This document shows positions 17,988 to 40,213 of a stretch of DNA of 40,213 bases, piece by piece. Each line of letters starts with the position of its first letter. Position 1 is the stretch's first letter. The DNA is from Opitutus sp. GAS368 (lineage in GTDB: Bacteria > Verrucomicrobiota > Verrucomicrobiia > Opitutales > Opitutaceae): positions 1-40,213 of the forward strand of contig CAMBRG010000019.1 in the NCBI GenBank assembly GCA_945869845.1, given 5' to 3'. The position numbers and the translations under genes are program-made. The notes under the pieces are model-generated. The model was not told the origin of the DNA. It worked only from the letters and a program-made list of their open reading frames with translations, and did not search any database.

Positions 17988-18079
<92 letters not shown>

Positions 18080-18209: not shown

Positions 18210-18232
18210 GCCCGCCGACGTTGCCGGCGGGC
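18210..18232. terminator. GC-rich hairpin downstream of fic (possible terminator)
   Basis: An 8-bp perfect stem GCCCGCCG / CGGCGGGC with a 7-base loop sits 50 bp beyond the fic stop and about 130 bp after the tRNA. No T-run follows on either strand, so it could be a weak or factor-dependent terminator, or simply a repeat. The remainder of 18080-18281 shows no gene I can support. Confidence 0.35.
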
Positions 18233-18281
18233 GGTTAAGCAGCATCCCTGGGGAGTAGCGCGAGGTGCACCGGGCATCATT

Positions 18282-19376: not shown

Positions 19377-19380
19377 CTAA

Positions 19381-19481: not shown

Positions 19482-19484
19482 CTA

Positions 19485-19813
19485 CAGGCACATCCGATGC
19501 CCGCGCTTAACAATGGGTCAATCGGATGTGATGAAGACGTCGCCGCCGGGTGCGCCAGATTGTCGATCTTCGATTGGCAACTGGGTACCAAGATGTCCGA
19601 GGCCGAAGTGGTGCAAATCCGTGAGACAGCACCATCAAATCCTTATCACCCGTCCCAATGATTTTCGGCAGCAGGCGGAGAGATCGCGTCGGATTTCGGC
19701 GAGATTTCGCCTCCGAGAACGATCTATTAGCGCCACTTTGGTTCGCGTTGAAATCGCGTCTCCTCCGCCAATTTTCCGACATCAGGGACCTCGTAATGTG
19801 GGTTTAATGGTTT
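19485..19813. other. Non-coding stretch between the fic control region and the sulfatase gene
   Basis: I see no convincing gene. Short open frames on both strands have no recognisable motifs. A 9-bp match to the 3' end of tRNA-Ser plus one following base (CTCCGCCAA at 18072-18080) recurs at 19763-19771. It could mark the far end of an inserted segment, but it is very short. Confidence 0.35.
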
Positions 19814-21331
19814 CTAATGTTTGGAATACTCAAGGCGGTCTATGACTTTTCCGGTGTCGTAGAGCAGAGTTTTCGGATAGTACGCTTCATCAAACGGGCG
19901 TGGCCGCGTCGGCCCGCCCCACGTTGAGCCCGGACGGCTTCCCCACGGCCGGCGCGCCCAGTGCGGACCACGCAAGGGATCTCTCGTGCGGTTCATCCAA
20001 GCGAGCAACTCGTCGAGCAACCGTTCCCGTTCAGGGGTGAGCGCCGGATCGTTGACCCGGTTCTGGAGCTCGAGGGGATCGGCCGTCAAATCGTAGAATT
20101 CATCGGTGTCGAGCAGGTTGATGACCAGTTTGTAGCGTCCGTCAAAGACACTGCGCATCGGCGCGAACGCGCCAAAACCGTCGTGGTCGATTTCAAACCG
20201 ATTGAATTCCATAAAGACAAAATCATTGGTGCGGTGGGCCGGATTGCGCATCTGGGGCAGTAGCGAACGTCCTTGGAGGATCGACGGAGCGGCCATCCCG
20301 AAGTAGTCGAGCAGCGTTGGCACCAGATCGATGTGCGATATCGGATCTTTGGATACTGCGCCCGCGGGTGCCATGCCGGGCCATCGGACGATGAACGGGA
20401 TGCGGACGATCTCTTCATACATGCACGGACCTTTGCCATAGAGACCGTGACTGCCGAACATGTCCCCGTGGTCGCTGGTGTGGATGACGAGGGCCCCGGG
20501 TGTTTCGGCATCGATTGCCGCCAGCACCCGACCGACCTGGGAGTCGCAAAAACTGTTGCACGCAAAATGGTGCGGGTGGCGCAAGTAGGCCTTGCCTCCG
20601 CTGCGAGCCAATTGGGTCTGATGGGACTCGGTATGCTGAGCCCATTCTTTTTGGGAGCGCGGTTTGTCCGAGAGTGGATCGTCCGCATTGGGCACGGGAA
20701 AAAGGAACTCGTCGAATGCGCTGGCGTAGGGTTCCGGCGCAATGAACGGATGGTGCGGTTCGTCAATCGACACGACCAACAGGAAGTCCCGATCCCGGTG
20801 GGCGCGGATAAATTCCCTCGCCCGTTCGGCTATCCGCCAGGCATGGGTGAATTCGGCGGTGATCCCGTGCGCGGCCACGTCTTTGGCCGCCAACACGCGT
20901 CGAGAAAGCGCACGCGCTTCGTCATTGGGCAATGACTCGAGGTAGTTTCGTCCGTCCATCCAATACGCCGGGTCCCAGCCGGGAGGACAGCGTCCGTCCC
21001 CAAAGTAGTCGCTGCCGTCGAGATGCCATTTACCGATGTAACCGGTCGCAAATCCGGCGTCGCTCAAGCGCTGACCGAGAGTGGGCAGATCGAGGTGGGG
21101 CGCCATGTCGTTGCCGAGGACGCCGTTGCTGTGCGGATAAAGCCCCGTAAACAGAGCCGAGCGCGCGGGCCCGCAGACCGGCGAGCACGAATAGGCACCG
21201 TTAAACCGGACACCCTCGGACGCGAGTCGGTCGATGTTCGGAGTGCCCAACGCCAACTCCGGGCGGTAGCAACCGACGCAATTGGCGCCCTGAGTATCGA
21301 TGAGGAAGAGAACGGTCTGTCGTGTAGCCAT
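19814..21331 (-). CDS. Sulfatase (family S1) without a signal peptide
   Basis: Formylglycine-dependent sulfatase of 505 residues. The metal-binding start is VLFLIDTQGANCVGCY (7-22), the FGly site CGPARSALFTG (53-63, C53 the modified residue) and GKWHLDG (about 100-106) carries the catalytic Lys/His. A second metal site is HTSDHGDMFGSHGLYGKG in the middle. The core motif is C-x-P-A-R where the other three sulfatases here have C-A-P-S-R. The protein begins directly with the first beta strand (MATRQTVLFL), so it looks cytoplasmic, unlike the three exported sulfatases of the locus. It is the last gene of the receptor-symporter-araC group on this strand, 123 bp after araC. It may act on imported sulfated sugars. 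The substrate is unknown, and no FGly-generating enzyme is in the window. Confidence 0.9.
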   Translation of the reverse strand: MATRQTVLFLIDTQGANCVGCYRPELALGTPNIDRLASEGVRFNGAYSCSPVCGPARSALFTGLYPHSNGVLGNDMAPHLDLPTLGQRLSDAGFATGYIGKWHLDGSDYFGDGRCPPGWDPAYWMDGRNYLESLPNDEARALSRRVLAAKDVAAHGITAEFTHAWRIAERAREFIRAHRDRDFLLVVSIDEPHHPFIAPEPYASAFDEFLFPVPNADDPLSDKPRSQKEWAQHTESHQTQLARSGGKAYLRHPHHFACNSFCDSQVGRVLAAIDAETPGALVIHTSDHGDMFGSHGLYGKGPCMYEEIVRIPFIVRWPGMAPAGAVSKDPISHIDLVPTLLDYFGMAAPSILQGRSLLPQMRNPAHRTNDFVFMEFNRFEIDHDGFGAFAPMRSVFDGRYKLVINLLDTDEFYDLTADPLELQNRVNDPALTPERERLLDELLAWMNRTRDPLRGPHWARRPWGSRPGSTWGGPTRPRPFDEAYYPKTLLYDTGKVIDRLEYSKH

Positions 21332-21454
21332 AGGAAAAATTTTGATCGGTCAGCGGTGTTTGCCCATCGCACCGCTCGGAAACTCCGCCACCTGGGGACT
21401 CATTAGCTCGAACGAATCTGGAGTTGTCGCGCTGCACTCATGGCGTGGGTCCGG

Positions 21455-22516
21455 TTAGCTCGCTGCGGCGGACGTTTTGCGGCACGACTGGCGATACATG
21501 GTCGGAGTCCGTTGCATAATACGCTTGAACAAGCGGCAGAAATAAAACGGATCCTCAAAGCCGACTAAGTGGGCGATGCTTTCCACCTTGGCGTCACTTT
21601 CGGCGAGGTATTCACACGCCTTGGCAATCTTCTGTCGGTTGAAAAAAATTCGCGGGCTTTGACCGGTGTGCTTGCGGAACTGTTGGGTGAAATAGGCGTG
21701 GGACATACCGGTGCTGGCCGCCAACTCGTGGATGCTCACGTGCGCGCGGAGGTTTTTGCGCATCATTGTGAGCGTGCGCTCGATCCGGGTTGCCGTTGAC
21801 TCCTGCACGGCCGGGCGACGGCACACCTGGCCAAAGAGATCGCCGAGCAGTTGATGCATCGCCGAGGAGGCCTGCACCAAATCCTTGTAGGCTTGGCCTG
21901 CGTGGTAGATCCCGAGAATTTTTTCGAAGGTCTCGACGAAACGGAGATCCGATTGAACAGCGATGCAGGTGTTTTTTCCTCCCGTGGTCAGAATATCGTA
22001 ATACTGCTGGGCGACCGTGCCGTTGAAATGAATCCAATAGTAGGACCACGGGTCGCCCGGGTCGGCTGCGTAGGCGTGAAATTCAAACGGCCGCAGGAGC
22101 GCGATGGTACCTCGGGTGATCCGGTGCGTGCCCTGGCTGAGATCGAGCGTGCCCGCTCCATCGAGGCAGTAGAGCAGCGTGAAGGCCCAATCCCCATTGG
22201 CTCGGGAAACTTTTTGTCCCTTGGCCCGGGGGAAATAACCGAGCCGGCAAGGCAGCAAGGCCGCCGTCAGAGCCTGCCGGTTGGCCGATTCCACGACTTT
22301 GGTAGGCAGCTTGAAAATCCGTTCACCCGGAAAGTCCTCACGACCGAGCACCGAGACGAGCTTGCGGCCATTGAAACTGAACACGCGCGTCTTGTCGTCC
22401 GCCATGTAGCCCTCCAGCGAGAACGCCTTCGGATCCAAGGGCGGCAACACGCGGTTGCGCGGTTTGGCCGACGCGGCGCCAGGACGTTTGCCTTCGGTTG
22501 GCTTGCTCATGACCAT
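21455..22516 (-). CDS. AraC-family transcriptional regulator
   Basis: 353 residues from the ATG at 22516 (MVMSKPTEGK); a second ATG lies two codons on. The open frame extends further upstream, but only as an arginine-rich shadow of the symporter gene. A cupin-like sensor domain (TLLYCLDGAGTLDLSQG, RITRGTIALLRPFEFHAYAA, WSYYWIHFNG) is followed by two helix-turn-helix motifs (SIHELAASTGMSHAYFTQQF, then KVESIAHLVGFEDPFYFCRL FKR), the standard AraC/XylS output domain of about 100 residues. The sensor probably binds a sugar released from the locus' glycan. The gene begins 5 bp after the symporter stop and is probably part of its operon. Likely operator sites lie at 27219-27328. Confidence 0.94.
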   Translation of the reverse strand: MVMSKPTEGKRPGAASAKPRNRVLPPLDPKAFSLEGYMADDKTRVFSFNGRKLVSVLGREDFPGERIFKLPTKVVESANRQALTAALLPCRLGYFPRAKGQKVSRANGDWAFTLLYCLDGAGTLDLSQGTHRITRGTIALLRPFEFHAYAADPGDPWSYYWIHFNGTVAQQYYDILTTGGKNTCIAVQSDLRFVETFEKILGIYHAGQAYKDLVQASSAMHQLLGDLFGQVCRRPAVQESTATRIERTLTMMRKNLRAHVSIHELAASTGMSHAYFTQQFRKHTGQSPRIFFNRQKIAKACEYLAESDAKVESIAHLVGFEDPFYFCRLFKRIMQRTPTMYRQSCRKTSAAAS

Positions 22517-22521
22517 CGGTC

Positions 22522-24177
22522 TTAGCCGGAATGGGCGAGACGCCACAGGGAAAAATAGAGCACGACCGCGAGCACGGAGACCACCACCGAGGCCACGCGC
22601 AGGCCACGCCACGGCGTGAGATCCACGGCGACGTCGGACGGCAGGCCGTCCCGCTTCGCGCTGGCGGCGGCGGGCGCAGCGGGAGCGAACCAACCGACGA
22701 TCAACATGAATCCGCAGAGCAACAGGGTGTTGAGGGCAGCGAGATGGAGCCAGTGGATGTGCAACGAGGAAACGTCGAAGCGCCCCAACCCGAGGAACCC
22801 AACGCCCCACAGGCAGTTCAGAAAAATCGACGTGAATACGCCGAGGATCATCGACACATTGGCCGCCCAAGCCGGCACCCGTCGGCTGAGCATCCCGGTG
22901 ACGACCACGGCGAGCAGGGGCAGCTTAAAGGCGGACATCACCTGCTTCATCATCGTGAAAATTCCCTCGGAAGAGCTGCCCAGCAGGTTGGTGGTGAAAA
23001 TGGCAACGAACATGATCACGACGCAGAAGAGTTTGCCCGCTCGAACCATCTCGCGATCCGAAGCTCCGGGCCGGAGCCAGCCTCGATAAAGATCCAAACT
23101 GAACATGGTCGAAACACTGTGCAGTCCGCCGTTGAATGAGCTGATCACGGAGCCGAGGAAAACCGCGGCGAACAAACCCACCAAATAGGGCGGCAGCACG
23201 GCGTCAACCAACAGCGAATAAGCGAGGTCGCCGTTGCCAATCGCGGCGGCGCCAAACATTTCCGCCGCCATGATGCCAGGGATCACGAGGAAGAACGGCC
23301 CCAGCAGCTTGAGCCCCGCGGTGGCGAGAATTCCCTTTTGAGCCTCGGCGAAGCTCTTCGCGCCGAAGGAGCGCTGCACGATCATCTGGTTGGTGCACCA
23401 GTAGAAGAGATTGATGAAAAGCATGCCCGTGAAGAGCGTGTCGAACGGCACGTTTGAGCCTGAACCACCTACCGGGTCGATCTTCGCGGCTTGGTGCTGC
23501 AACATGCGATTCATACCCGCGAGGAAGTCGCCATCACCCAACTTGAAAAGCGCGAGCACGGGGATGAGCAGACCGCACACGAGCAGGCCGGCACCGTAGA
23601 GCGTGTCGGATAGTGCCACCGCCTTCATGCCGCCGAAGAGCACGTAGCAGGTGCCGATGATGCCGATGCTCCAAGCCATCAGTTGGAAAGAGGCGCCCTC
23701 GGAAATACCGAGCTGGGTGTGCACATGGAAGATCGTGCTCATCGCCAACCCACCGGAATAGAGGACAAACGGCAGGATGTTCAGCGCGATCGTGATAATA
23801 AACACGATACCCATGATCCGGCGCGCCGTCGCGTCGAAGCGCTGTTCGAGAAACTGCGGCACGGTCGTGATGTTGCCCGACCAGTAGCGGGGCAGAAAAT
23901 ACCACGCCATCGCGATCAATGCGAACACCGGCACGACCTCCCACGCCATCACCACCGCGCCGTGAATGGACGCCGCCCCGTTCAGACCGATGAGCTGCTC
24001 GGTGGAAAGGTTGGTCAGCAACAGCGCCCCGGCCACTTGGATCCACGGCAGTTTCCGACCGGCGAGGAAGTAGGTTTGCGCGTCGCTATTGTCCTCGCGG
24101 CGGGTCTGCCACCACGAAATCAACCCCACCACGACGGTGAAAAAAAGAAATGAGCCGATGGCGAGCGGAAGATTCAT
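22522..24177 (-). CDS. SSS-family sodium/solute symporter (SLC5-like sugar transporter)
   Basis: Inner-membrane symporter of 551 residues with about 14 hydrophobic helices. The N-terminus (VVVGLISWWQTRREDNSDAQ, TYFLAGRKLPWIQVAGALLL, TNLSTEQLIGLNG) is the SSS signature region: 'FLAGR.L.W......L..T..S...L.G'. The Na+-site region FLGSVISSFNGGLHSVSTMF is also conserved. It resembles the SglT/SGLT sugar branch more than proline or pantothenate transporters. The gene lies 66 bp after the TonB-dependent receptor and 5 bp before araC. It would take up the mono- or oligosaccharide released in the periplasm. Exact substrate not predictable. Confidence 0.94.
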   Translation of the reverse strand: MNLPLAIGSFLFFTVVVGLISWWQTRREDNSDAQTYFLAGRKLPWIQVAGALLLTNLSTEQLIGLNGAASIHGAVVMAWEVVPVFALIAMAWYFLPRYWSGNITTVPQFLEQRFDATARRIMGIVFIITIALNILPFVLYSGGLAMSTIFHVHTQLGISEGASFQLMAWSIGIIGTCYVLFGGMKAVALSDTLYGAGLLVCGLLIPVLALFKLGDGDFLAGMNRMLQHQAAKIDPVGGSGSNVPFDTLFTGMLFINLFYWCTNQMIVQRSFGAKSFAEAQKGILATAGLKLLGPFFLVIPGIMAAEMFGAAAIGNGDLAYSLLVDAVLPPYLVGLFAAVFLGSVISSFNGGLHSVSTMFSLDLYRGWLRPGASDREMVRAGKLFCVVIMFVAIFTTNLLGSSSEGIFTMMKQVMSAFKLPLLAVVVTGMLSRRVPAWAANVSMILGVFTSIFLNCLWGVGFLGLGRFDVSSLHIHWLHLAALNTLLLCGFMLIVGWFAPAAPAAASAKRDGLPSDVAVDLTPWRGLRVASVVVSVLAVVLYFSLWRLAHSG

Positions 24178-24243
24178 AGGTGGGAATTCTAACCGGGCCC
24201 CCGGCGGCCGGCCAGCGTCAGGTATTCTATTGGGGGATACTCA

Positions 24244-27126
24244 TCAGAAACTGAACTTGGTCGTGATGATCCAATCGAGGGGAGGATTGAACCGATAGGC
24301 CGTCAACACGCCGTCCCGAGCGGTGTTGATCCGAATGAAGGCATCATTGTTCAGCGCATTGTTAATGTTCGTCTGCAGGGACCAGGCGACGGATTTACCC
24401 ATGATCTGAAGCTTCCGGCGGTAGGCCGCGTTGAGGTCGAGAAACACTTGCTCCGATCCATAAGAAACGGTGCTCGTCACGGCTCCGCCCGGAGTTCCGG
24501 TGGCGCGATAACCATTGATCGGCCTGCCGGTGTAGCGCACGCCGCCGCCGACGGTGATGCCCTTCAAGGCTCCTCGGGAGAACTCATAATTCGATACGAG
24601 ATTCAGCTTGTGCTCCATCTGGCCGAGTGCGGGCCGCCCATTGGCGAGCGTAAAGTCGGTAAACGTCCGGACATCGAGCGCCGCGAGCTGCGTGGCGATG
24701 GTGCCGACGCCGGTGCTCAGGGGCAGTGCCGCATTGGCCGCCCAAGTCGGGCGCCAAAAGGCGATGTAAGCAAAATCCTCTTGCCCGATGTTGGTTTGAG
24801 CGGACTTCGATTGGCTGTAGTTCAGGAATACCCGCCAATAGGCCGTGGGGTTGGCCGTGAGTTCCACCTCGTAGCCTTGGGTGCGGTTATCAAAGGTCCG
24901 GCCGGTGCCGCTTTGCACGGTGCCGCTCGGAATTTTTCCGGCCAAAGCGAGGGCGCTCCAGATCGGGTTGATCGACGACGCAATGTTGCCGAAATCAAAA
25001 TCGCGATCGGCGCTGGTTTGGAAATACTGCGCGGTGACGAAAAGCCGGTTCTTGAACAGATCCAGTTTAAATCCGATGTCCTGGCTCTTGCCTTTCGGGG
25101 TGGGCGGACGAGCGAACGCGGCCACATCTGAATTGGGGACATTCAGCCGTCCCCCAAAGCTGGGCAGGCCGCTGTTGCCGGATTGGCTGTAGGTCAGGCC
25201 GAGCCACTCGGTGGCTTGCAGCACGCCGCTAAAAGAAACACTGGTAGCGACCGTATTGATGGGCGTCTGGCTGCGCACAGGGCCCGGTATGCCGGAAGCA
25301 AAGCCAGCCACAGGCGTTAGCACGGACGTGGAGGCGTAGTCGTTGCGATCATCGCGGCTGGTGCCAATGATGGTCTTGATTCGATTTTTCCAGAACGAGC
25401 TTTGCAGCATGCCGATCATCGTCTGGCTGTCGAAACTGTTGAGGATGCCGTTGACGTTAAACGGCACCAAAGCGGTCGTGTAACTTCTGCCGCTGAGGGT
25501 TTCCGTGATCGTGCCCAAGGCCTGCCGGTTGTAAGGCGCCATCACGATGTTGCGGCTCGGGCCAGCGAGGTCGACATAGGTGCGGCGGAAGATGCGATTG
25601 TTGGCGTTGATGGCGCTGGTTAAGTTCGGCGCGTTGGGTGAGATGATTTGTTCGCGGACCGCGATTTGAGACAACTTCGTGAAGTCATATTGATAGACCC
25701 CGGCCAACGTGTGTTTGCCCCAGCGGCCGAAGTCCCGCGTGTAGGAAAGAACCGACCGCAGTGAATCACTGCGGGTGTCTGCGAATCCGATCTGAGGCAG
25801 GCCCTCGACGTAGGTTTTGCCGACATTGGGGTTAACGGCGCCGGAAGGCAGGGTCGGGTTGGTGTCGACGATGATGGCCCGGGTGTTGGCGGTCTGTGGG
25901 TCCGAGTTCACCGTATGGCTGTCGGTGCGCATGCCGGCGATTTCCAGATTGAGGTTGGGGGTAAACGAGTGGGTCAGATAGGCCCCGAGACGGGCGTATT
26001 TCGTATCGAGACCAAAACCCGGCCCGTAAACCGACGTCTCCTTGGGCAACACATTGAAATTCGACATGGGAACATTTTCGCCATCAATCGCCGTCCAAAG
26101 GGTGCTCCGGGTTTTGTTGACCCAATTGGTCACGGCGCCCGAGGCCGTGTCCAAAACCAGATAGGGCGTGTTGTTGGCCGCGACCCCCGAGATTTGCTGC
26201 GCGGCATTGATGGCACCGACGTTGCGTCCCGCGGCCGCCCAGCGGGTGTAGGCATCATAGGCCGTGATGGAACGGATGGTCCGCTTATTGAGGTCCGCCT
26301 TCTCCAGATCGAAATTGAACTCGGTTTTCTGCCCCACGCGCCATTTCCCGGTGAGATAGGCACGTTCCGAGTCGCTGAACTCATAGTTGCGCCAGCTGCC
26401 GCGTTGTTCCTTCACTGCGGCGACCCGGAGCGAAATGTGTTCGCCGATGGCCTGGTTGTAGTCGGCCTCTTCGCGTAGGCCTCCCTCCGAGCGACCCTGC
26501 ACGGCGGCCGAAAAAGCGTTCTTGCCCAGCAACGCACGTTTGTTCGTCACGTTGATGAGACCTCCGGGTGAGCCGATGCCGAACAGGATCGAATTCGGGC
26601 CGCGGGCTTGGTCAATGCGCTCCGTGCTAAAGGTGTCGGCCGGGAAATCGGATTTGAAAAAGTTAACCGCGACGGTGCCGCCCGGGAGGCCGCGCATCCG
26701 CAATGATCGCGTGCTCGAACTCGCAAGAAAGTTCTGCCCCGGCCCGGCATTCTCACCGAAGTCATACTCGGTGCTGAGCATGTAGCGCGCGAGATCGTCG
26801 GTGTTCGTGATGCCGACGTCGTTGAGAAATTCTGCGGTGAAGGCAGTGGTGGGCGCGGCGACGTCCTTGAGATTGGTCCGCAGGCGGCTGCCACCCAAGG
26901 TCGATTGCGCTTGATAGCCACGATCCAACGTCGACGTGACGGTGAAAGGAGTGAGTTCCACCACTTCCGAAGCGGTGGCATTCTTGGGATCATCCGTCGG
27001 CGAGGCCGGAGATGAGGAATTCGCCACCGCTTGGGCGCAGGCGATGGAGGCTAACCCCGGCAGACAAAGTAGAAGCGCTAACGGGAACCAGCGCGGGATG
27101 ACAGGAATCGGGGAAGAAATCAGCAT
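24244..27126 (-). CDS. TonB-dependent outer membrane receptor
   Basis: Outer-membrane channel for active import of a glycan fragment, 960 residues. I chose the ATG at 27126 because it is followed directly by a signal peptide (MLISSPIPVIPRWFPLALLL to ACAQ). The open frame upstream adds 70 residues that contain no export signal. A TonB-box-like segment (VVELTPFTV) precedes the plug domain (APTTAFTAEFLNDVGITNTD, RMRGLPGG, DQARGPNSILFGIGSPGGLI). A 22-strand-type barrel follows, ending in the outer-membrane insertion signal DWIITTKFSF. This layout is common among Opitutaceae receptors. No SusD-like protein accompanies it. A nine-base C tract lies 8 bp upstream of the start. Confidence 0.95.
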   Translation of the reverse strand: MLISSPIPVIPRWFPLALLLCLPGLASIACAQAVANSSSPASPTDDPKNATASEVVELTPFTVTSTLDRGYQAQSTLGGSRLRTNLKDVAAPTTAFTAEFLNDVGITNTDDLARYMLSTEYDFGENAGPGQNFLASSSTRSLRMRGLPGGTVAVNFFKSDFPADTFSTERIDQARGPNSILFGIGSPGGLINVTNKRALLGKNAFSAAVQGRSEGGLREEADYNQAIGEHISLRVAAVKEQRGSWRNYEFSDSERAYLTGKWRVGQKTEFNFDLEKADLNKRTIRSITAYDAYTRWAAAGRNVGAINAAQQISGVAANNTPYLVLDTASGAVTNWVNKTRSTLWTAIDGENVPMSNFNVLPKETSVYGPGFGLDTKYARLGAYLTHSFTPNLNLEIAGMRTDSHTVNSDPQTANTRAIIVDTNPTLPSGAVNPNVGKTYVEGLPQIGFADTRSDSLRSVLSYTRDFGRWGKHTLAGVYQYDFTKLSQIAVREQIISPNAPNLTSAINANNRIFRRTYVDLAGPSRNIVMAPYNRQALGTITETLSGRSYTTALVPFNVNGILNSFDSQTMIGMLQSSFWKNRIKTIIGTSRDDRNDYASTSVLTPVAGFASGIPGPVRSQTPINTVATSVSFSGVLQATEWLGLTYSQSGNSGLPSFGGRLNVPNSDVAAFARPPTPKGKSQDIGFKLDLFKNRLFVTAQYFQTSADRDFDFGNIASSINPIWSALALAGKIPSGTVQSGTGRTFDNRTQGYEVELTANPTAYWRVFLNYSQSKSAQTNIGQEDFAYIAFWRPTWAANAALPLSTGVGTIATQLAALDVRTFTDFTLANGRPALGQMEHKLNLVSNYEFSRGALKGITVGGGVRYTGRPINGYRATGTPGGAVTSTVSYGSEQVFLDLNAAYRRKLQIMGKSVAWSLQTNINNALNNDAFIRINTARDGVLTAYRFNPPLDWIITTKFSF

Positions 27127-27133
27127 GGTAGCA

Positions 27134-27142
27134 GGGGGGGGG
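27134..27142 (-). repeat. Nine-base homopolymer (C9 on the receptor strand) just before the receptor start
   Basis: The plus strand reads nine consecutive G residues. On the coding strand the C9 run lies 8 bp before the chosen ATG, where a Shine-Dalgarno sequence would normally be. Such tracts can change length by slipped-strand mispairing and alter expression of surface proteins. That this happens here is inference. Confidence 0.7.
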
Positions 27143-27218
27143 TGACGAAACGGGGGAGAGAGACCGAGGGAAGATACGCACAGCCCAACGCATCGGACAT
27201 AGACGAATTTGGCATCAA

Positions 27219-27328
27219 TCTGGACTTTTTGAATTAGGTCTGGACTTGGCCGTGTCGCCTCGTTCTTGGCTAGACAGTGAGGCGGACTATAAGCCGCTTC
27301 TCTCAAGTCGCGTAAACAAAAAGTCCAG
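27219..27328. promoter_or_regulatory. Candidate AraC operator: 20-bp-spaced direct repeat plus inverted copy
   Basis: TCTGGACTT occurs at 27219-27227 and again at 27239-27247, exactly 20 bp apart, two helical turns and typical for AraC-family half-sites. An inverted copy lies at 27317-27328: CAAAAAGTCCAG is the perfect complement of CTGGACTTTTTG at 27220-27231. The sites are in the 446-bp divergent gap (27127-27572) between the receptor and the glycoside-hydrolase-like gene, about 93 bp before the receptor start and 245 bp before the hydrolase start. The rest of the gap shows no gene I can support. Confidence 0.65.
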
Positions 27329-27572
27329 CGAGCCATGCGGAATGTCTATACGCTCGCCGGACCGGCACGAATACTATCTCGCAGACGATGCCGGTCTCCC
27401 CAGCCGCTCAATTCGCGCCCCACCCCTCAACGCTCGCTCGCCCAAGTTTGCTCATCCCCAAAAAGCAATGTCACTCGCCCGATTGATTCTGGCTTCAAGA
27501 CCGGTCGCTTTCGCTTCGCTCTGCGTGGCCCTCGTCACACTTCACGGATAAATCACGAACGCCCATTGAAAC

Positions 27573-29495: not shown

Positions 29496-29531
29496 CCGAA
29501 CCCGTCGGTTTCGAATACCACGAATTACACT

Positions 29532-30998: not shown

Positions 30999-31056
30999 CC
31001 ACCCGGAGTCCGCAACTGGAACTCTGCCCCTAGATACCCACCCTATTTTCCGGCCC

Positions 31057-32562: not shown

Positions 32563-32573
32563 CAGGACCCACC

Positions 32574-33692
32574 ATGATGCCCCGTTTCTTTCCCCTCCTG
32601 CTCGCCGCCTGCCTCGCGTCGCCATTGCCCGCGCAAGAGGACGAGAATCAAGGGAATCGCGCGGCCGAGTTGAACAATGCCCCGGCGATTTCAAAGGACG
32701 GCCGAGTTACCTTCACGCTGACCGCGCCCAAGGCCTCGGTGGTTTCGCTAGGTGGCGATTGGGGCGGTGGCCGCACGCCCATGACCAAGGACGGCCTGGG
32801 AAACTGGACCGCCACCGTGCCCCTCCGCCCGCAGATTTATTCCTACACGTTTCTCGTCGACGGCGTGAGGACGCTCGATCCGGCCAACCCTCAGCTCAAA
32901 CTGGGTCGCGTTGCCACCGCGAGCTCGGTGGAAGTGCCGGGCACTCCGGCGATGCCGTGGGAGATGCGCGACGTGCCCCACGGCGCGATCACCACCCTCA
33001 CGTATCATTCCACCGCCGCAGGCGACCAGCGGCGGGTCACGATCTACACACCGCCCGGCTATCGCCCGGATCAGGCGACCAAGCTTCCGGTGCTCTATCT
33101 TTTGCACGGCAACGGCGAAACCGAAAGCGGCTGGGTGCACTACGGTCGGGCCCACCTGATTGCCGACAGCCTGTTGGCCGAAGGACGGATGCAGCCCATG
33201 CTCATTGTCATGCCGAAGGGCCACACCTACCCACCGGGCGAAAAGCCCACGCCCGGGGTGCGACCGACGAACGTCTTCCCGGCGGACCTCCTGGGGACCA
33301 TCGTGCCGCTCGTGGAGCAGACGTTTCGGGTGCGGACCGACCAGCCCGGCCGCGCCATCATGGGATTGTCGATGGGCGGCGCGCAGTCGCTCAGCATCGG
33401 CTTGGGTCATCTCGACCGCTTCAGTCATGTGGGCGTCTTCAGTGCCGGCGGAAGCCACGCGGCGGAGGTGTTGGCGCGGGTCGCCGCGGCTCCCGGCTCC
33501 GCCAACGAAAAGCTCAAGCTGCTCTGGATCGGCTGCGGGCGCGAGGATCGCGGCTTCGCCGGCGTGGAAAAACTGGCCGCCGATCTGACGCAGGCCGGCA
33601 TCCGGTTCACATTCCGACCGACCGCCGGGGCCCACACCTGGCTCAACTGGCGCGAGTATCTGGTCGAAACCTTGCCGCTGTTGTTCCGCTGA
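32574..33692 (+). CDS. Exported esterase with N-terminal E-set domain (CE1/esterase D-like)
   Basis: 372 residues. The ATG at 32574 is preferred: AGGA lies 5 bp upstream, though a GTG at 32559 overlaps the sulfatase stop by 4 bp and is an alternative. After the signal peptide (FFPLLLAACLASPLPAQ) comes an immunoglobulin/CBM48-like domain (VTFTLTAPKASVVSLGGDWG, NWTATVPLRPQIYSYTFLVD; about 44-100). The alpha/beta-hydrolase follows, with LPVLYLLHGNGETESGW (171-187), nucleophile S266 in IMGLSMGGAQS and H354 in GAHTWLNWREYL. The order matches feruloyl/acetyl-xylan esterase-type CE1 proteins and enterochelin-esterase relatives. In this locus it probably removes acyl groups from the glycan. The ester cleaved is unknown. 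Confidence 0.9.
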   Translation: MMPRFFPLLLAACLASPLPAQEDENQGNRAAELNNAPAISKDGRVTFTLTAPKASVVSLGGDWGGGRTPMTKDGLGNWTATVPLRPQIYSYTFLVDGVRTLDPANPQLKLGRVATASSVEVPGTPAMPWEMRDVPHGAITTLTYHSTAAGDQRRVTIYTPPGYRPDQATKLPVLYLLHGNGETESGWVHYGRAHLIADSLLAEGRMQPMLIVMPKGHTYPPGEKPTPGVRPTNVFPADLLGTIVPLVEQTFRVRTDQPGRAIMGLSMGGAQSLSIGLGHLDRFSHVGVFSAGGSHAAEVLARVAAAPGSANEKLKLLWIGCGREDRGFAGVEKLAADLTQAGIRFTFRPTAGAHTWLNWREYLVETLPLLFR

Positions 33693-33716
33693 TTCACCCC
33701 ACCCTCGTCTCCTCCT

Positions 33717-35807
33717 ATGCACCATCCCATGTTCCGAATTCTGGCGGCCCTGATCGGCTTCGCCCTCGCCCGGATCGCCGGCGCCGCCACGCCTGCGGTG
33801 GAGCATGTCCCCGGTGGAGCCGAGTTTTCCCTGCGTTGGGGAACCGCAGCGCACATCGCCGATGTCACGTTCTCCCTTCGCGTCAACGGCCAGTGGATTC
33901 ACGGCGAGGCTTTTCCCCGCCGTGAATGGACGTCCGCTTCCGGCCGACACGTGCTGCGCTGCTCCGGCCTGCCCCCGCTGGAGGAGTTTGTCCTGACGAT
34001 CGAGACCGCCGCTGATCGCCCCTATGTGATCGTGAACGCGGGACTCACCGCCCGCGATCAATTCGAGTTGGGCGGCGTGCGCGTGCTGACCCGCAAAGGC
34101 GAGGCCGCCAATCTCCCCGTCACCCGGGCCGATCCGGGTTGGACGGTTTTCTCCGAAGCTCTGCACTCCCCCGACCACGGGCGGATCTTCACGGTCGCGC
34201 AGATGGCCGACCTGAAGCCCGGCCGGCGAGGCGATCCACGCAACGCCTATTGGGTGTCGACGCTTCAGCACGACGTGAAGAACCAGACCTATGCTTTTGC
34301 CGCATTGAAAGGCGAACTCTGGCCGACCTCCTTCGAGTGGCGGACCTCCGCGCAGGGAGCGCTGGACGTCTCCCACCGCAGCGGCAGTCCCGAGGGACTC
34401 GAGAAGATTCTCGTCAAGTCGGGCCGGGCAATCGCGGTGGATCCCGTGCTCGTGGGATTCTGGGAAAACCGGCGGCCGACCCAGGTGCTGGCCGAGGTGG
34501 GACGGATCATGGGAGAAAGCCTCCGGATGGGACGCCCGATGAAGCCTATCGAACCCGGCTGGAGCACTTGGCACTCGTATGGCCGCGAAATCACCGCCGA
34601 CGGCGTGATGAGAGCGGCGCGGTTCATGCGGGACGAACTCTACGACGCCGGCTATCGCTACATCCAACTCGACGGCGGTTGGTGGACCGTGCCGGGCTCG
34701 TATGTGGTGAACACGGATTTTCCCCGCGGCATCCGCGATCTCTCGAATCAGATCACCGACCTCGGCCTGAAGTTCGGGCTCCACATCAGTCCGTTGCGGG
34801 TGAATCCCACCGACCCCTATTGGAAAAATCATCCCGACTGGTTGGTCTCGCCTTACAACAAGAAGCCGATCGATCCGCACGACGCCGAGATGATGACCTC
34901 GCTGGGCATGATGTATCTCGACGGCAGCCATCCCGACGTGCCGCCCTATCTGGCCGGACAGTTCAAGCAGATGGTCGAGGACTACAAGCCGACCTTCATG
35001 AAGTGGGACCATCACTACGGCGGCCTCGAGGAGGCGCCGCGGCACGATCCCACCATGACCGGCCTCCAGGCGCACAACCGGGCGGTGCGCATGATCCGCG
35101 CGGCCCTGCCGGCGGATCTCGTCGTCACGCGGAGCATGGGCTGGCTCTTCGGCGCGATCGAGTGCTACGACGCCGTGCGGATCGGCAACGACATCAACCA
35201 CACGGGCGTCCGGAGCGCGGCCGAGCCGTATGCGAATATCACTTACGGCCAGACCACCGGCTCGATCGCCGAGGTGCCGTTGGGCCGCGACTTCCAGGGC
35301 CTGATCCGCTTCGCCCGGGCGGCGGCGCAAAATTACTACATTCATAACCACATCGCGATCTGCGACCCCGACGCCTTCTTCACCTCGCCGCAATACACGC
35401 TGGAAGAAGCGCGCTGCCATATCACCGTGCAGGCGCTGATGGGCGGCTTTCTTTTCGGCGGCGACCGCATCGAGTCGCTCCCGAAAGATCGCCTCGACCT
35501 GTATCGCCACAAGCCGTTGCTCGACGTGTGGCGCTCCGGCAAGCACGCGGTGCCGCTCGATCTCTTTTCCGGCGCCGACATCCCCCGGATCTGGAAGCTC
35601 GAATTACCCGACCGCACCGTGTTCGGATTTTTCAACTGGATCGATGCAGCCGTCGAATCGACATGGTCCCTGCGCGACCTAGAACTCGGCACCGGGACCT
35701 ACCGGCTCACCGATCTTTGGAGCGGACAGCCGGTCGCGCTGGGCCAAAGCGGCCTGACTCTGCCCATGGCGCCGCATACGGTGCGATTGATCGAATTCCG
35801 CCAATGA
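33717..35807 (+). CDS. Exported alpha-galactosidase-like glycoside hydrolase (GH36/clan GH-D)
   Basis: 696 residues with a signal peptide (FRILAALIGFALARIAGAA). The N-terminal half (about 25-270) is a beta-sandwich supersandwich-like domain. The barrel begins EPGWSTWHSYGREITADGV (279-297), with RYIQLDGGW (314-322). The nucleophile is D431 in FMKWDHHYGG and the acid/base D492 in AVRIGNDINH, matching the clan GH-D pattern KWD...R.(G/S).D. A C-terminal beta domain (FGFFNWIDAAVESTWSLRDL, VALGQSGLTLPMAPHTVRLI) closes it. An alpha-galactosidase/alpha-N-acetylgalactosaminidase activity is expected from the family, but GH27, GH31-like and GH97 relatives share parts of this pattern. It follows the esterase by 24 bp. 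Confidence 0.88.
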   Translation: MHHPMFRILAALIGFALARIAGAATPAVEHVPGGAEFSLRWGTAAHIADVTFSLRVNGQWIHGEAFPRREWTSASGRHVLRCSGLPPLEEFVLTIETAADRPYVIVNAGLTARDQFELGGVRVLTRKGEAANLPVTRADPGWTVFSEALHSPDHGRIFTVAQMADLKPGRRGDPRNAYWVSTLQHDVKNQTYAFAALKGELWPTSFEWRTSAQGALDVSHRSGSPEGLEKILVKSGRAIAVDPVLVGFWENRRPTQVLAEVGRIMGESLRMGRPMKPIEPGWSTWHSYGREITADGVMRAARFMRDELYDAGYRYIQLDGGWWTVPGSYVVNTDFPRGIRDLSNQITDLGLKFGLHISPLRVNPTDPYWKNHPDWLVSPYNKKPIDPHDAEMMTSLGMMYLDGSHPDVPPYLAGQFKQMVEDYKPTFMKWDHHYGGLEEAPRHDPTMTGLQAHNRAVRMIRAALPADLVVTRSMGWLFGAIECYDAVRIGNDINHTGVRSAAEPYANITYGQTTGSIAEVPLGRDFQGLIRFARAAAQNYYIHNHIAICDPDAFFTSPQYTLEEARCHITVQALMGGFLFGGDRIESLPKDRLDLYRHKPLLDVWRSGKHAVPLDLFSGADIPRIWKLELPDRTVFGFFNWIDAAVESTWSLRDLELGTGTYRLTDLWSGQPVALGQSGLTLPMAPHTVRLIEFRQ

Positions 35808-35853
35808 ACGCGGCTCCCACCTTCGCGCCGCCCTCCCCCTGAAACCCGCTTCT

Positions 35854-37302
35854 ATGAAATCCCTCCTCCGTCTAATTTTCGTCGTCGCGGCGGCCGTGTC
35901 CGCCCGGGCCGAGCGGCCGAACATTTTGCTCGTACTTTCCGACGATCACAGCGTCCCGCATCTCGGAGTTTACGGCGACGTCAACTGTCGGCGTCTGGCC
36001 TTGACCCCCCACCTCGACGCCTTTGCGGCCCAGGGCATGCGTTTCAACCGCGCCTTCACCGCGGCGCCGCAATGCGCACCTTCCCGCACCGCGATGTTTG
36101 CGGGTCGCTCGCCGATCGGGATTGCCGCCACGCGTTTCGCCCAGCCGGCGCGCGCGGGCACGCCCTTCGTGACCGATCTGCTGCGCGCCGCCGGATACTG
36201 GGTGGGGTTGGACGGGCGGCATCAGCACCTCGAAGGGCAGATCAACGATCCGGCCCATGTGGTGGTGGCGCTGGAGGAGCAAGGCGTGCGCGGACCGCAG
36301 TTTGAGGCGCGGTTCGATCATTTTGTGCGAAGCGCTCGGACCAAAGGCGACGCGCTGCCCAAGGTGCCCGCAATGTTCGGATCCATCCTCGACAAAGTGC
36401 CGGCCGGAAAACCCTTCTTTCTCTATTTCGGCTTCAACCAACCCCACCGCCCCTGGGGCGACGACCACGAAGGGATTGATCCCGCGCAGCTGAAACTTCC
36501 GGCCGACTGGCCGGACCTGCCGGAAGTGCGGCTCGACTACGCCCGCTACCTGGCGGAAGTCCGCGATTTGGATACGGGCTTTGGCCTGATCATGCAGGTG
36601 CTCGAACAACGCGGACTGGCGGAGAACACTCTGGTGCTCTTTATCGGCGACAACGGCGAAGCGTTGCTGCGCGGCAAGGGCACGCTCTTTACCCGCGGCC
36701 TGAATGTGCCGCTGCTGGTGCGTTGGCCGGGCAAGATTCGCGGCGGGAGCGTGAGCGAAGCGTTGATCAGCGGCGAGGATATCGCCCCGACCCTCCTGAG
36801 CGCGGTGGGCGTTGCGGCGGACCAGGGGATGACCGGCCGCGATTTCAAGCCGCTGCTGTTGGGGCAGCCGTTCACCCCGCGCGAGCAGATCTTTGCCGAG
36901 CGGGGCTGGCACTTCGGCCCTATCACGCGCACCGATGGCTTCGACCTGTCCCGCTCCGTCGTCACGCCGCGCTACAACTTCATTTACAATGCCATTCCCG
37001 AGCGCAGCTATACCCCGGTGGATATGGCGACGCGAAACGTGGCATGGGAAGCGATCAAGGCCGCGCACAAAGCGGGCCGCCTGAGCGCCGAACATGCGCG
37101 GATGTATTTTCAGAATCCCCGGCCCATATTCGAACTCTACGACTTGGACAACGACCCCTTTCAGCTCAGCAATCTCGCCGGGCAAGACGCCGTCAGCGTG
37201 ATCGAGCGGGACCTGCGCGAACGCCTTGATCGCTGGATGGTGAGCGAGGGCGACTACGTGCCCCTGCCGGTCCATGCGTTTCAAAACCGGGAAAAACCGT
37301 GA
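35854..37302 (+). CDS. Exported sulfatase (family S1)
   Basis: 482 residues with a signal peptide (SLLRLIFVVAAAVSARAE). Metal-binding start PNILLVLSDDHSVPHLGVYG (22-41), FGly site CAPSRTAMFAGRSPIGIA (74-91, C74 modified) and the second metal site FIGDNGEALLRGKGTLFTRG. GLDGRHQHLEG replaces the usual GKWHLG, so the catalytic lysine position is occupied by Arg or lies elsewhere. FGFNQPHRPW supplies the substrate-binding His/Arg. The C-terminus has the standard ELYDLDNDPFQLSNLAGQ sulfatase end. It is the last gene of the plus-strand enzyme group, 46 bp after the alpha-galactosidase-like gene. It differs clearly from the other three sulfatases, implying another sulfate position. Confidence 0.92.
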   Translation: MKSLLRLIFVVAAAVSARAERPNILLVLSDDHSVPHLGVYGDVNCRRLALTPHLDAFAAQGMRFNRAFTAAPQCAPSRTAMFAGRSPIGIAATRFAQPARAGTPFVTDLLRAAGYWVGLDGRHQHLEGQINDPAHVVVALEEQGVRGPQFEARFDHFVRSARTKGDALPKVPAMFGSILDKVPAGKPFFLYFGFNQPHRPWGDDHEGIDPAQLKLPADWPDLPEVRLDYARYLAEVRDLDTGFGLIMQVLEQRGLAENTLVLFIGDNGEALLRGKGTLFTRGLNVPLLVRWPGKIRGGSVSEALISGEDIAPTLLSAVGVAADQGMTGRDFKPLLLGQPFTPREQIFAERGWHFGPITRTDGFDLSRSVVTPRYNFIYNAIPERSYTPVDMATRNVAWEAIKAAHKAGRLSAEHARMYFQNPRPIFELYDLDNDPFQLSNLAGQDAVSVIERDLRERLDRWMVSEGDYVPLPVHAFQNREKP

Positions 37303-37310
37303 GGGTTTTT
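37292..37310 (+). terminator. Possible weak terminator at the end of the sulfatase gene
   Basis: AAAAACC and GGTTTTT form a 7-bp stem around GTGAG, which contains the stop codon, and the stem itself ends in five T residues. This could end the plus-strand enzyme transcript, but the stem is short and AT-rich. Confidence 0.4.
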
Positions 37311-37520
37311 GTCTCGCAGCTCTCGTGCACCGCCTGAGCAGCGATTTAGTCCAGCGCTCGGCGCAGTAAGTCCATGGCGTGCGGCGGAGCCTTGCGGCAT
37401 GATGAGCGGGCACCGTGAGGCGTCGCCCCGTTTCGCCTCGCGCGGTTGTTCAGGAATTCCGCCAGCCCACCCCCGGGCTGTCGCCCTCGCGAAACCCACG
37501 GTCACGAAACTGTCCTCACC

Positions 37521-37592
37521 ATAAAAACTACCCTCCCTTCCTCGCTCTTCGCCGCAGCGCTTGTCTGCGCCGTGCTCCCAAGCCCTGCGGCC
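37521..37592 (+). pseudogene. Signal-peptide-like remnant without a start codon
   Basis: Starting at an ATA the frame reads IKTTLPSSLFAAALVCAVLP then SPAA, a textbook signal peptide apart from Ile in place of Met. It lies in a 440-bp gap (37303-37742) between the last sulfatase and the second receptor. The frame stays open into the receptor gene on the opposite strand but encodes nothing recognisable. The rest of the gap shows no gene I can support. I read it as the 5' relic of a lost exported enzyme of the locus, with low certainty. Confidence 0.35.
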
Positions 37593-37742
37593 CGTTGGGT
37601 TTCCCGCCTCTTCCCGACCCTTACTGAAAGCTGCAGGCCAGCCTCGTTCTCCTTCGCCACCGAGACGGCCAGTTGGGTCCGATGCGGCTCGGGCTGGCCG
37701 ACTCTCGTCGGCAGAAAGCGGACGCCAGGGACGTCTCCCCGC

Positions 37743-40213
37743 TCAGAATTCAAACGTGGACCGCAGCATAAAAGTGCGGCCTTGGGGGGCCATCCACGAA
37801 GAGATGGAACCGTTGGGCTGCGCGGCGGCGGGAATCAACTGGTCGTCGTCGAGGAGGTTGCGGACGTTGAGTTGCAATTTCCAGTTGATCCGATTCCGCC
37901 AGATTTTCCGACCGTAGCCGACCCAGCTGTCGACGGCGAACTCCGCCGGACCGTAGTAGGGGCGCTGGAGGTTGGGCACTTCAACGACCTTGCCGTCGAT
38001 GGTTGCAGAGATGATGGGGTAACCGATGCCAACGCGGTCCTGCCAGCGTAGGCCCGAGCCAGCGCTCCAGCCGCGGAGGCGGGAGTCGCGGGAAAAAGTG
38101 TAGTTCGCCACGACATTGGTGCGCCATTCGCGCAGTTCCGAGACGCTCTGGCCGGAGCGGGCGAGCTTGCCGTTGAGGGCGTTGAGCAACGTATCGTAGA
38201 CGCGGATGCGCACCGGCTGACCCGACTCGTCGGCGATGAGGTTCGAGGCGGCGCCGGTGGTCCACTCAGCGAGACGCAGCTTGAGAAATTCCTGGGAAGC
38301 CGGGGCGATGTCGGCCTGGCTGGCCAGCTGCTGGCTGACATTGAAGGCAATCCGCCACTGGTTGGTGGGATTATAGGTGGACTCAAACTCGAAGCCCTTT
38401 GAGGCGGTGCTCGTCGTGTCGCGCATGTTGCCGGGCACCGTGTAGGTGACGTTGACACCGCTGGGCGCCAAGGCCGTGGGCGGACCGGTAAATTCCTGCC
38501 AGTTAATCAGGGCCTTGAGAAACTGAGGCGAACCCTTGTAGCCAACGGCCGCGAGCGCGGCGGGGGAGTTGTAGCGCACAATGCGGGCATCCGTCTCGAT
38601 CAAAAAATTGGGATAGGTGTCGGTGGCGCGCTCGGATTGCGTCTCAAACCAATTGAAGCGGGTTTGCAGTTTGCCGCCGAGGAAGCCGAGGGTGAAGCCA
38701 CGGTCGGTGGTGGTGCCACCGGGCGGCTGGATGGCCTTGCCAAAAATGTCGATTCGGGCGTCCGCCGGCTGAAAGTTCTCCGACTTGCTGTAAAAGACCG
38801 AGAAATCGACTCCGGGCATAAATTTGAGGAACGGCGGCCGGTGCACGACGAAGCCGTGGCTCCAAATCGCTTGCTCGAAGACGGAGCCGGGCGTGGAGGG
38901 CAGCACGAAGTTGGGGCTCGCGCGGTCGACGAAGTTATACTGATTGCGCACGTTGTTGTCGTCGTTCTTGCGGTAGGACTTCACCTTGTCGTTGCGCCAG
39001 CCCAGCGTGGTCACGACCCATTCGCCCTTGAGCCAGCGGGCTTGGTGGACGGCGGATTGAGATTCGATGACTTGACGGACCAGAGAGGCGTTGGTGGCTT
39101 GGCGGTAGAAAACTTCATCGTCGATTATCCGCGAGATTTGCACCGGTCGGGTGACAAACGTGCGGCTCACTTGGTCCCAAGTCCAACCGGTGACGTTGGC
39201 CGGATTCAGCTCCGTCTGGATGCCCTGCAGGTTGGCTCCCTTCGCGGTGGCGGCGTTGGCCAAACTGGGGCCGAGATAGACGACGGTGCGGACGGTTCCA
39301 TCGCTGGAATTGATGTCATCGCGGGCCGTGACGGGATTGATCGCCGAGCGGGTTTGAAGAACCCAGTTGAGGTCGGTGGTGTTGGTGCCGGAGAACGTCG
39401 CCTCATCATAAGTGAAGCGATTGCCGAACCCGGTGAAATTATGCCGGCCAAGCCACTTGAAGCGCTCGGTGTTGCGGGCGAAATCGAGTTCAAGAAAGGC
39501 AGTCAAGCGATCGGAGCTGCGGTCTTCACGGGTGCTCGAGCGGGTGCCGGTGCCGGCCATGAAGGGGCGGCCGAAATTAGGATTGGGCGCGCCCCACGGC
39601 AGCGTGGTGTTGATGTCGATATTGATCGTGTAACCGCGGTTGCTGGCGAAGAGGTCGTAGAAGTTGCGCGTGTGTTCCTCGCGGCTGATCGCGGCCTCGA
39701 AGCCCATCGTGCCGAGCGGGTGCGTCCAAAGGTGATCGTAGCTGACGTTGCCCACTTGGAAATTCTCCCACTCGCGTTTGTTGGGACCATCGAGCAGTTG
39801 GTTGCGCCAATCGAAAATCGAGGTGTCGCCGATCTCCTCGTCCACGAAGAAAGAGCCAAATTTGATGCCCTGGGCAGCCGCGGCAGCGGACGAGTAATAC
39901 TGACTGCCGGTGGTGAGAGAAACCATGTTAGCCTGAAACGCGGCGGGGATGGTGGGACTCACGGGCCGACCCAGCAGGGTTTGCCAACCATACTGGAGCC
40001 GGGACGGAGCCGCCGCGTTGTTGCTCTCGTAGATGACGCCGGGCTGCGCAAACCAATCACCTGGGGAACGCACCAGATCGCGGTTGATTTGGTTGAAATC
40101 GACCGTGCCCGGACTGTGCGTGACTTTATTGAATGGAGTTTGAAACCACTTGGTCAGGGTGTCGCGCGGGGAGTTGGTGCGCGGGCGATTGGCGTCGATC
40201 TTGCCGCTTTCGA
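37743..40213 (-). CDS. TonB-dependent outer membrane receptor, N-terminus beyond the window
   Basis: The frame is open from the window end to the stop at 37743, giving 823 codons of barrel. An in-frame GTG at 40073 is internal, since the coding continues upstream (NRPRTNSPRDTLTKWFQTPF). The plug and signal peptide are outside. The barrel is recognisable by alternating aromatic strands (FLGGKLQTRFNWFETQSERA, GFEFESTYNPTNQWRIAFNV, WSAGSGLRWQDRVGIGYP, WRNRINWKLQLNVRNLLDDD) and by the C-terminal insertion signal GRTFMLRSTFEF. LNVRNLLDDDQLIPAAAQ is the conserved penultimate turn. It converges on the plus-strand sulfatase group and is not closely similar to the first receptor, so it may import another fragment of the same glycan. 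Confidence 0.93.
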   Translation of the reverse strand, partial: ESGKIDANRPRTNSPRDTLTKWFQTPFNKVTHSPGTVDFNQINRDLVRSPGDWFAQPGVIYESNNAAAPSRLQYGWQTLLGRPVSPTIPAAFQANMVSLTTGSQYYSSAAAAAQGIKFGSFFVDEEIGDTSIFDWRNQLLDGPNKREWENFQVGNVSYDHLWTHPLGTMGFEAAISREEHTRNFYDLFASNRGYTINIDINTTLPWGAPNPNFGRPFMAGTGTRSSTREDRSSDRLTAFLELDFARNTERFKWLGRHNFTGFGNRFTYDEATFSGTNTTDLNWVLQTRSAINPVTARDDINSSDGTVRTVVYLGPSLANAATAKGANLQGIQTELNPANVTGWTWDQVSRTFVTRPVQISRIIDDEVFYRQATNASLVRQVIESQSAVHQARWLKGEWVVTTLGWRNDKVKSYRKNDDNNVRNQYNFVDRASPNFVLPSTPGSVFEQAIWSHGFVVHRPPFLKFMPGVDFSVFYSKSENFQPADARIDIFGKAIQPPGGTTTDRGFTLGFLGGKLQTRFNWFETQSERATDTYPNFLIETDARIVRYNSPAALAAVGYKGSPQFLKALINWQEFTGPPTALAPSGVNVTYTVPGNMRDTTSTASKGFEFESTYNPTNQWRIAFNVSQQLASQADIAPASQEFLKLRLAEWTTGAASNLIADESGQPVRIRVYDTLLNALNGKLARSGQSVSELREWRTNVVANYTFSRDSRLRGWSAGSGLRWQDRVGIGYPIISATIDGKVVEVPNLQRPYYGPAEFAVDSWVGYGRKIWRNRINWKLQLNVRNLLDDDQLIPAAAQPNGSISSWMAPQGRTFMLRSTFEF

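Follow-up and report, generated by a model that had tools for sequence, protein, structure and literature searches.

A predicted TonB-dependent utilisation locus for a sulfated, galacto-configured glycan in an Opitutus genome

In the lambda-carrageenan polysaccharide-utilisation locus (PUL) of Pseudoalteromonas distincta U2A, exo-acting sulfatases alternate with alpha- and beta-galactosidases down to galactose, and S1_8A of this cascade is a galactose-2-sulfate sulfatase (PMC12549532). BT1622 and BT1636, the two S1_20 enzymes of Bacteroides thetaiotaomicron, belong to a mucin PUL context with SusCD; in S1_20 a His reads the axial O4 of galactose, and a Glu and an Arg of BT1636 read O2, both of which are missing from BT1622 (review PMC10154612). 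In the parts of He et al. 2017 used here (PMC5615132), freshwater Verrucomicrobia are described as having sulfatase-rich genomes with carbohydrate utilisation loci containing TonB-dependent receptors (CUT loci), in which the receptors (TBDRs) accompany hydrolases that act outside the cell and sugar transporters of the inner membrane. Freshwater Verrucomicrobiota are rich in sulfatases, and their sulfated substrates are hardly known. Here we analysed a stretch of 40,213 bases (the window), which is the complete contig C19 (CAMBRG010000019.1) of the 3.62-Mb metagenome-assembled genome (MAG) of Opitutus sp. GAS368 (219 contigs, 83% complete). It carries a gene cluster that is rather likely to be a TonB-dependent utilisation locus for a sulfated glycan of galactose or other galacto-configured sugars, made of two evolutionary modules and encoding an exo-acting pathway for a sulfated galactan or its arabinopyranose analogue. 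The locus makes one such substrate testable.

The locus genes run from position 19814 on and form two arms. The minus arm consists of sulfatase A (19814-21331), an AraC-family regulator with an AraC-type ligand-binding domain (21455-22870, likely true start near 22438; PF12833 (HTH_18) and PF02311 (AraC_binding), with orthologues in relatives), an SSS symporter of the SGLT/YidK type (22522-24177; PF00474) and TBDR1 (24244-27336, likely start 27126), whose Plug domain scored 23.0 bits, below the cut-off of 23.9. Across a divergent intergenic region (27126-27573), the plus arm consists of a secreted TIM-barrel hydrolase that we call GHx (27573-29495), sulfatases B (29532-30998) and C (31057-32562), a CE1-type esterase (32574-33692), a GH36-like glycosidase (33717-35807) and sulfatase D (35854-37302). 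TBDR2 (37743-40211, minus strand) has zero Pfam matches and is TBDR-like at 85 bits against a profile built from TBDR1; its N-terminus is cut by the contig end, where the locus is incomplete. All reported genes were confirmed by Pfam except these two receptors and GHx, which is treated below. Genes were called by a composition score; calling by the longest open reading frame (ORF) picks shadow ORFs in this GC-rich contig. The left 18 kb of the window are housekeeping genes, and from 7.2 kb on their order is the same as in the relative G005 (G numbers denote the genomes compared, G000 being the window's own, and L numbers the loci compared). A TBDR, a regulator, an inner-membrane transporter and carbohydrate-active enzymes are thus clustered as in a TBDR-type (CUT) PUL, and no SusD was found among the scanned window proteins, which sets the locus apart from the SusC/SusD-type PULs of Bacteroidota. 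The preliminary description, made from the sequence alone, had listed two TonB receptors, the symporter, the regulator, four different sulfatases, a CE1-like esterase, a GH36-like enzyme and a TIM-barrel hydrolase without SusD, and all of this was borne out. Its class, a PUL for a sulfated, galactose-containing glycan, also holds in the light of the S1_20 residues, the S1_8-like neighbours, the SGLT-type symporter, the galactokinase in the relatives' arm and the Leloir genes of Flavobacterium described below.

All four sulfatases matched PF00884 (sulfatase A with 174.7 bits) and had an intact formylglycine motif C-x-P-[SA]-R (C53-G-P-A-R in sulfatase A, CAPSR with Cys81 in sulfatase B, CAPSR in sulfatase D), which places them in S1, and genes for formylglycine-generating enzyme (FGE) are present in the genome. 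Their nearest PDB chains put sulfatases A and B each in a group of its own, while C and D share the nearest chain yet are distinct proteins. The genome has 84 PF00884 matches, so a lone sulfatase would be unremarkable, and it is the gene set and its linkage that carry the weight.

The position of one sulfate is indicated by sulfatase B. Its best PDB matches were BT1622 (E 3.6e-95) and BT1636 (6.5e-83), followed by the next chain at 1e-58; the PDB codes are linked to these enzymes by PMC10154620. With residue roles taken from the review (PMC10154612) and residue matches from our alignment of the catalytic domain, H160 stands at the conserved His reading O4, and E310 and R329 stand at the O2-reading Glu and Arg of BT1636 that BT1622 does not have, which assigns sulfatase B to S1_20. 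The three residues (H/E/R) were kept in every full-length sulfatase B homologue of at least 43% identity from the related loci fetched, including homologues of Verrucomicrobiota, Pontiella, Gramella, Marinilabilia and Carboxylicivirga. The Glu and Arg aligned with E310 and R329 are presumably those meant for BT1636, going by its residue numbering. One homologue at 41% identity had H/Q/R; below 41% most were without the set, three at 33% had it, and the other sulfatases of the same loci were mostly without it. Because of the S1_20 match and the conservation of H/E/R in the homologues, sulfatase B is predicted to be an exo-3-O-sulfo-D-galactose sulfatase.

S1_20 enzymes with the same residues also desulfate mucin (PMC10154612), which would suit an animal-glycan locus for mucin-type 3-O-sulfated galactose or GalNAc instead of an algal or plant galactan. 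We regard this as very improbable, as the Glu/Arg pair reading O2 goes with galactose and not with GalNAc, the window holds no hexosaminidase, sialidase, fucosidase or S1_11 enzyme, and the relatives are lake-water genomes.

The nearest PDB chain of both sulfatase C (secreted; start at about 31057, versus the ORF start at 30673) and sulfatase D (secreted, with signal peptide) was S1_8A (E 3e-35 and 4.5e-45, respectively; S1_8B is also near to sulfatase D), which gives a lead that they act at another position than O3, likely O2. S1_8-like sulfatases, the logic of alpha- and beta-galactosidases and galactose as end product would also be expected from a lambda-carrageenan locus like that of Pseudoalteromonas; this explanation has next to no chance, since a 3-O-sulfatase is present though lambda-carrageenan has no 3-sulfate, and the habitat is freshwater. 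Membership in that PUL was rejected, with GH150, GH110, GH2 and S1_15 absent from the window and only S1_8-like members present. Fucoidan was rejected as the window's substrate because no fucosidase was found in the window. Elsewhere in the genome, contig C1 (L010-L014) has 100 kb with 34 PF00884 matches, TBDR-like genes, an SSS-like symporter, a GH29-fucosidase-looking protein (L014 11598-13286, by appearance only) and hardly any other glycosidase, and is perhaps a fucoidan-type sulfatase array.

Sulfatase A (nearest PDB chain S1_30A, 9.6e-49) has no signal peptide: both the window protein and its four orthologues begin within the catalytic domain, whereas hydrophobic leaders were found on sulfatases B-D, the CE1 esterase, the GH36-like enzyme, GHx and TBDR1. 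Because it is leaderless among enzymes with leaders, sulfatase A is probably cytoplasmic, where it would act on sugar imported by the symporter. The symporter matched the NF007790 equivalog with 582 bits (cut-off 401), and its nearest PDB chain was vSGLT (4.7e-48). A galactokinase gene follows the GH36-like and sulfatase genes in a same-direction run in G012 (L016) and G010 (L100), and the window's genome also has a galactokinase. In Flavobacterium, GHx has galT and an SSS symporter at most 10 kb away at three loci (L035, L036 and L040), with a galE-like gene in L036 and a SusD at the GHx locus L035.

The GH36-like enzyme belongs to clan GH-D: it matched Melibiase (PF02065) with 50.6 bits against a cut-off of 27, as well as PF17801, and has KWD (MKWD, D431, candidate nucleophile) and GND (IGND, D492, candidate acid/base) at the sites of the catalytic Asp residues. 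Its PDB matches were alpha-galactosidases, with GH27 beta-L-arabinopyranosidases among the weaker ones, and the sole NCBIfam match, a weak one, was a beta-L-arabinopyranosidase. Beta-L-arabinopyranose is alpha-D-galactose without C6, and both sugars are candidates for this enzyme as judged from its matches. The CE1 esterase (PF00756) has the nucleophile motif G-L-S-M-G (GxSxG) and a CBM48-like N-terminal domain, and its nearest PDB chains are the ferulic acid esterases 6rzn/8bbp, followed by 6mou and 7b5v; the alignment to CBM48-CE1 type feruloyl esterases spans the full length (best E 8.7e-62).

These arabinopyranosidase matches also lead to an explanation that we consider unlikely on balance, in which the main substrate is a sulfated xylogalactoarabinan of the Cladophora type, whose backbone is 4-linked beta-L-arabinopyranose with sulfate chiefly at C3 and some at C2. 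On this view, beta-L-arabinopyranosidase activity would fall to the GH36-like enzyme, sulfatase B would desulfate 3-O-sulfo-L-arabinopyranose, and GHx would trim galactose side chains. The polymer of the freshwater alga Cladophora surera fits, with C3 and some C2 sulfate on beta-L-arabinopyranose, chains of terminal galactopyranose and 3-sulfated 6-linked galactose (PMC5694217); GH127, a family of arabinofuranosidases, stands by GHx in L043 and L020, and the loci with GHx are mostly freshwater by record titles. However, galactokinase and galT/galE accompany the loci, where we saw no arabinose genes, the window is without a xylosidase, and loci of the GHx type also occur in marine Pontiella and Gramella. 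Overall, we predict a glycan with galacto-configuration, 3-O-sulfate and probably a second sulfate position, with Cladophora-type xylogalactoarabinans, sulfated heterogalactans of freshwater plants (PMC3269731) and red-algal-like galactans among the candidates.

GHx had been called a TIM-barrel hydrolase of unassigned family, which stands for Pfam, NCBIfam and PDB, the three resources to which our statement is limited. No Pfam or NCBIfam family was found for it, the GH42 match reaching 20.3 bits against a cut-off of 21. Profiles built from 6 and 74 members recovered only chains of the GH42, GH35 and GH10 type over about 100 residues with weak E-values, and the likeness to GH35/GH42 was confined to the first third of the barrel. 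An AlphaFold model from the 74 sequences (pLDDT 89.5) found GH35 beta-galactosidases as best Foldseek matches in the PDB (E 3e-10, TM 0.36, 11% identity). The Glu at the end of strand 7 (E294, candidate nucleophile) was kept in 73/74 sequences, and D175 in the loop after strand 4 (candidate acid/base) in 71/74. At the position of the GH35 Glu after strand 4 (G171), 72/74 have Gly, and the motif there is IQVKTG, in place of the GH35 Asn-Glu acid/base motif which we take to be IQVENE. With the model match under its cut-off and no Asn-Glu acid/base after strand 4, GHx was not assigned to GH42 or GH35. GHx could plausibly be a retaining clan-A enzyme whose acid/base has been displaced. Only tentatively do we go further and propose a new clan GH-A family acting on beta-linked, maybe sulfated galactose, with the acid/base moved to D175, as the core of the first described freshwater pathway for 3-O-sulfated galactan or arabinogalactan.

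Some other proteins around GHx may be mentioned here. Giant GHx variants of 1277 aa and longer, with He_PIG Ig-like and InlB-like repeats (L107 3-4859; L086 9911-13744), are possibly surface-anchored. A protein of about 600 aa (cluster c14) lies beside GHx in 6 loci (for example L108 1-1787(-), L039 13522-15381(+) and L044 7806-9865(+)); the members scanned had no Pfam match whatsoever, and it is a candidate for another unknown enzyme. Near GHx and GH36-like genes there is also a six-hairpin glycosidase-like protein (cluster c8) with sub-threshold Bac_rhamnosid6H/MGH1-like matches (L102 10848-12230, L104 7294-8748, L107 16884-18185 and, as a sulfatase fusion, L101 11190-14006).

Comparison within the genus indicated where the two modules meet. 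G005 and G008, both of the window's genus, are collinear with the window over 19763-27368 at 90% and over 19763-27236 at 95% DNA identity, respectively, and then the homology stops, both breaks falling within the divergent region that immediately precedes TBDR1. TBDR1 orthologues (88-97% identical) were found in 4 of 12 relatives of the genus. Beyond the break, G005 has another GHx (38% identity), another sulfatase and, in addition, an S1_20 enzyme with H/E/R; in G008 there follow a large receptor-like gene, sulfatases, and genes resembling those of Gfo/Idh proteins and 3-keto-disaccharide hydrolases. Because the homology to both relatives ends at this region, the minus arm appears to be a fixed front end and the plus arm a cassette exchanged at the divergent promoter. 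The same breaks could mean that two unrelated modules merely abut, with the minus strand importing one sugar and the plus strand holding a transferred enzyme cluster for a different one: G005 and G008 share the minus arm with the window but have a wholly different plus arm, and G012 and G010 carry the plus arm without an adjoining TBDR1. We think this improbable, as GHx adjoins TBDR1 or the symporter in several relatives whose arms differ (L017, L023, L027, L029, L048 and L050), and the arm of G005 again has a GHx-type gene and an S1_20 gene with H/E/R, that is, different genes of the same kinds. A fixed import arm with an exchangeable enzyme arm would clearly illustrate how loci of this sort may shift their substrate range.

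Pairs of a Gfo/Idh oxidoreductase and a 3-keto-disaccharide hydrolase were seen in alternative enzyme arms (L135 15814-18418, L023 12337-14533 and L017 12603-15114), a hint that glycans of this kind may also be degraded by an oxidative 3-keto route. To the left of the locus, a Fic gene (DUF4172-Fic, 18282-19376) lies in a 1.67-kb stretch (18093-19762) directly after tRNA-Ser(GCT) (17988-18079), and this stretch is absent from the same site in G005 and G008. The 3' end of the tRNA gene is imperfectly repeated at 19747-19774; a search for a guessed repeat pattern by tRNA-Ser found none. The stretch looks like a small tRNA-targeted insertion whose integrase is not visible, and a copy with 73% DNA identity is found near another TBDR1 in G010 (L134 4436-5620).

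GHx and the GH36-like enzyme are rare and linked. Among 273 genomes of the order, GHx was found in 8 and the GH36-like gene in 4, with 3 in common (hypergeometric p 6.6e-5), so they occur together more often than by chance. They lie within about 10-35 kb of each other in G107, while about 50 kb of a long stretch rich in sulfatases separate them in G184, whose coordinates are those of strain IMCC26134 (CP011265). A region of about 75 kb in the complete genome of that strain (around 1338-1414 kb, L104-L108) has many sulfatases, four GHx and one GH36-like gene. Within the genus, sulfatase B (at least 76% identity) and the GH36-like gene were present in the same 4/13 genomes, on the same contig in 4/4. 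The closest named relatives of the window's GHx gene are lake Opitutae/Opitutaceae MAGs, and GHx ranges over Verrucomicrobiota and Bacteroidota as well as MAGs labelled Planctomycetota, Acidobacteriota, Sumerlaeota and Myxococcota. Names given to MAGs in the public GHx scan, such as Rhizobium, Akkermansia muciniphila and Chitinophagaceae, were not relied on for taxonomy, and the transfer argument was based on named strains. In the tree, whose only support measure is SH-aLRT and in which some long branches are uncertain, a GHx of Flavobacterium luteum was placed, with high support, in the same clade as that of the window, surrounded by Verrucomicrobiota sequences, which argues for lateral transfer across phyla.

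Several points weigh against this overall picture. The public scan with the GHx alignment kept 77 loci chosen by GHx itself, so neighbour counts among them are conditional, of which the order scan and the genus linkage counts are free. The arms are separable, because sulfatase B and the GH36-like gene occur without GHx in G010, and G008 keeps the minus arm without an adjoining GHx. The 40-kb contig contains no endo-acting depolymerase, GHx matches known folds only weakly and with a poor rmsd, and O2 for sulfatases C and D is a guess because their likeness to S1_8 is distant. The gal genes in Flavobacterium may be there for unrelated reasons, and all enzyme activities of the locus are predicted from sequence.

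From the observed gene content, families, specificity residues, synteny breakpoints and patchy linked distribution, we infer the following activities, localisation, order of steps and regulation. TBDR1 would import oligosaccharides across the outer membrane, and the AraC protein would sense a sugar product. The enzymes of the plus arm, secreted or periplasmic and exo-acting, would work in turn: the CE1 esterase would take off acyl groups, sulfatase B the 3-O-sulfate of terminal galactose, and sulfatases C and D sulfate at another position, probably O2, while the GH36-like enzyme would cleave alpha-galactosyl (or beta-L-arabinopyranosyl) and GHx beta-galactosyl ends. The SGLT-type symporter would then move the monosaccharide, possibly still sulfated, into the cytoplasm, where sulfatase A would strip residual sulfate before galactokinase acts. 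The enzymes of the exchanged plus arm may have moved between phyla. The prediction names a sugar (galacto-configured), a sulfate position (O3) and an enzyme set, and the same kind of genes is found in named strains (IMCC26134, Flavobacterium luteum and Pontiella sulfatireligans). Should GHx prove to be a new family of hydrolases, it would be an extra tool for sulfated galactans.

Compared with known systems, PULs, S1_20 and S1_8 sulfatases, CE1 and clan GH-D are known kinds; the novelty lies in how they are combined, in the exchange of the arm as a cassette and most of all in the GHx family. The locus shares S1_8 and the exo-acting alternation of sulfatases and galactosidases with the P. distincta U2A PUL, but has GH36-like, GHx, S1_20 and CE1 enzymes and verrucomicrobial TBDR, AraC and SSS genes, without an endo-enzyme, in place of GH150, GH110, GH2 and S1_15. 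Sulfatase B keeps the residue set of BT1636 but stands beside a TBDR without SusD in an aquatic bacterium. The CUT loci of freshwater Verrucomicrobia resemble it in their receptors, hydrolases and transporters, but the parts of PMC5615132 used here describe neither this gene set nor a substrate or residue-level prediction. GHx is like the GH35/GH42 beta-galactosidases in the first-third profile, the best fold matches and the Glu ending strand 7, and unlike them in the missing Asn-Glu pair, the lack of Pfam membership and the low identity. Pontiella sulfatireligans F21 (L086) has GHx types, CE1, S1_20 with H/E/R and a GH36-like enzyme 73% identical to that of the window, but is a marine anaerobe with a different transporter context; its growth substrates include kappa- and iota-carrageenan, chondroitin sulfate, fucoidan and galactose (PMC7356697).

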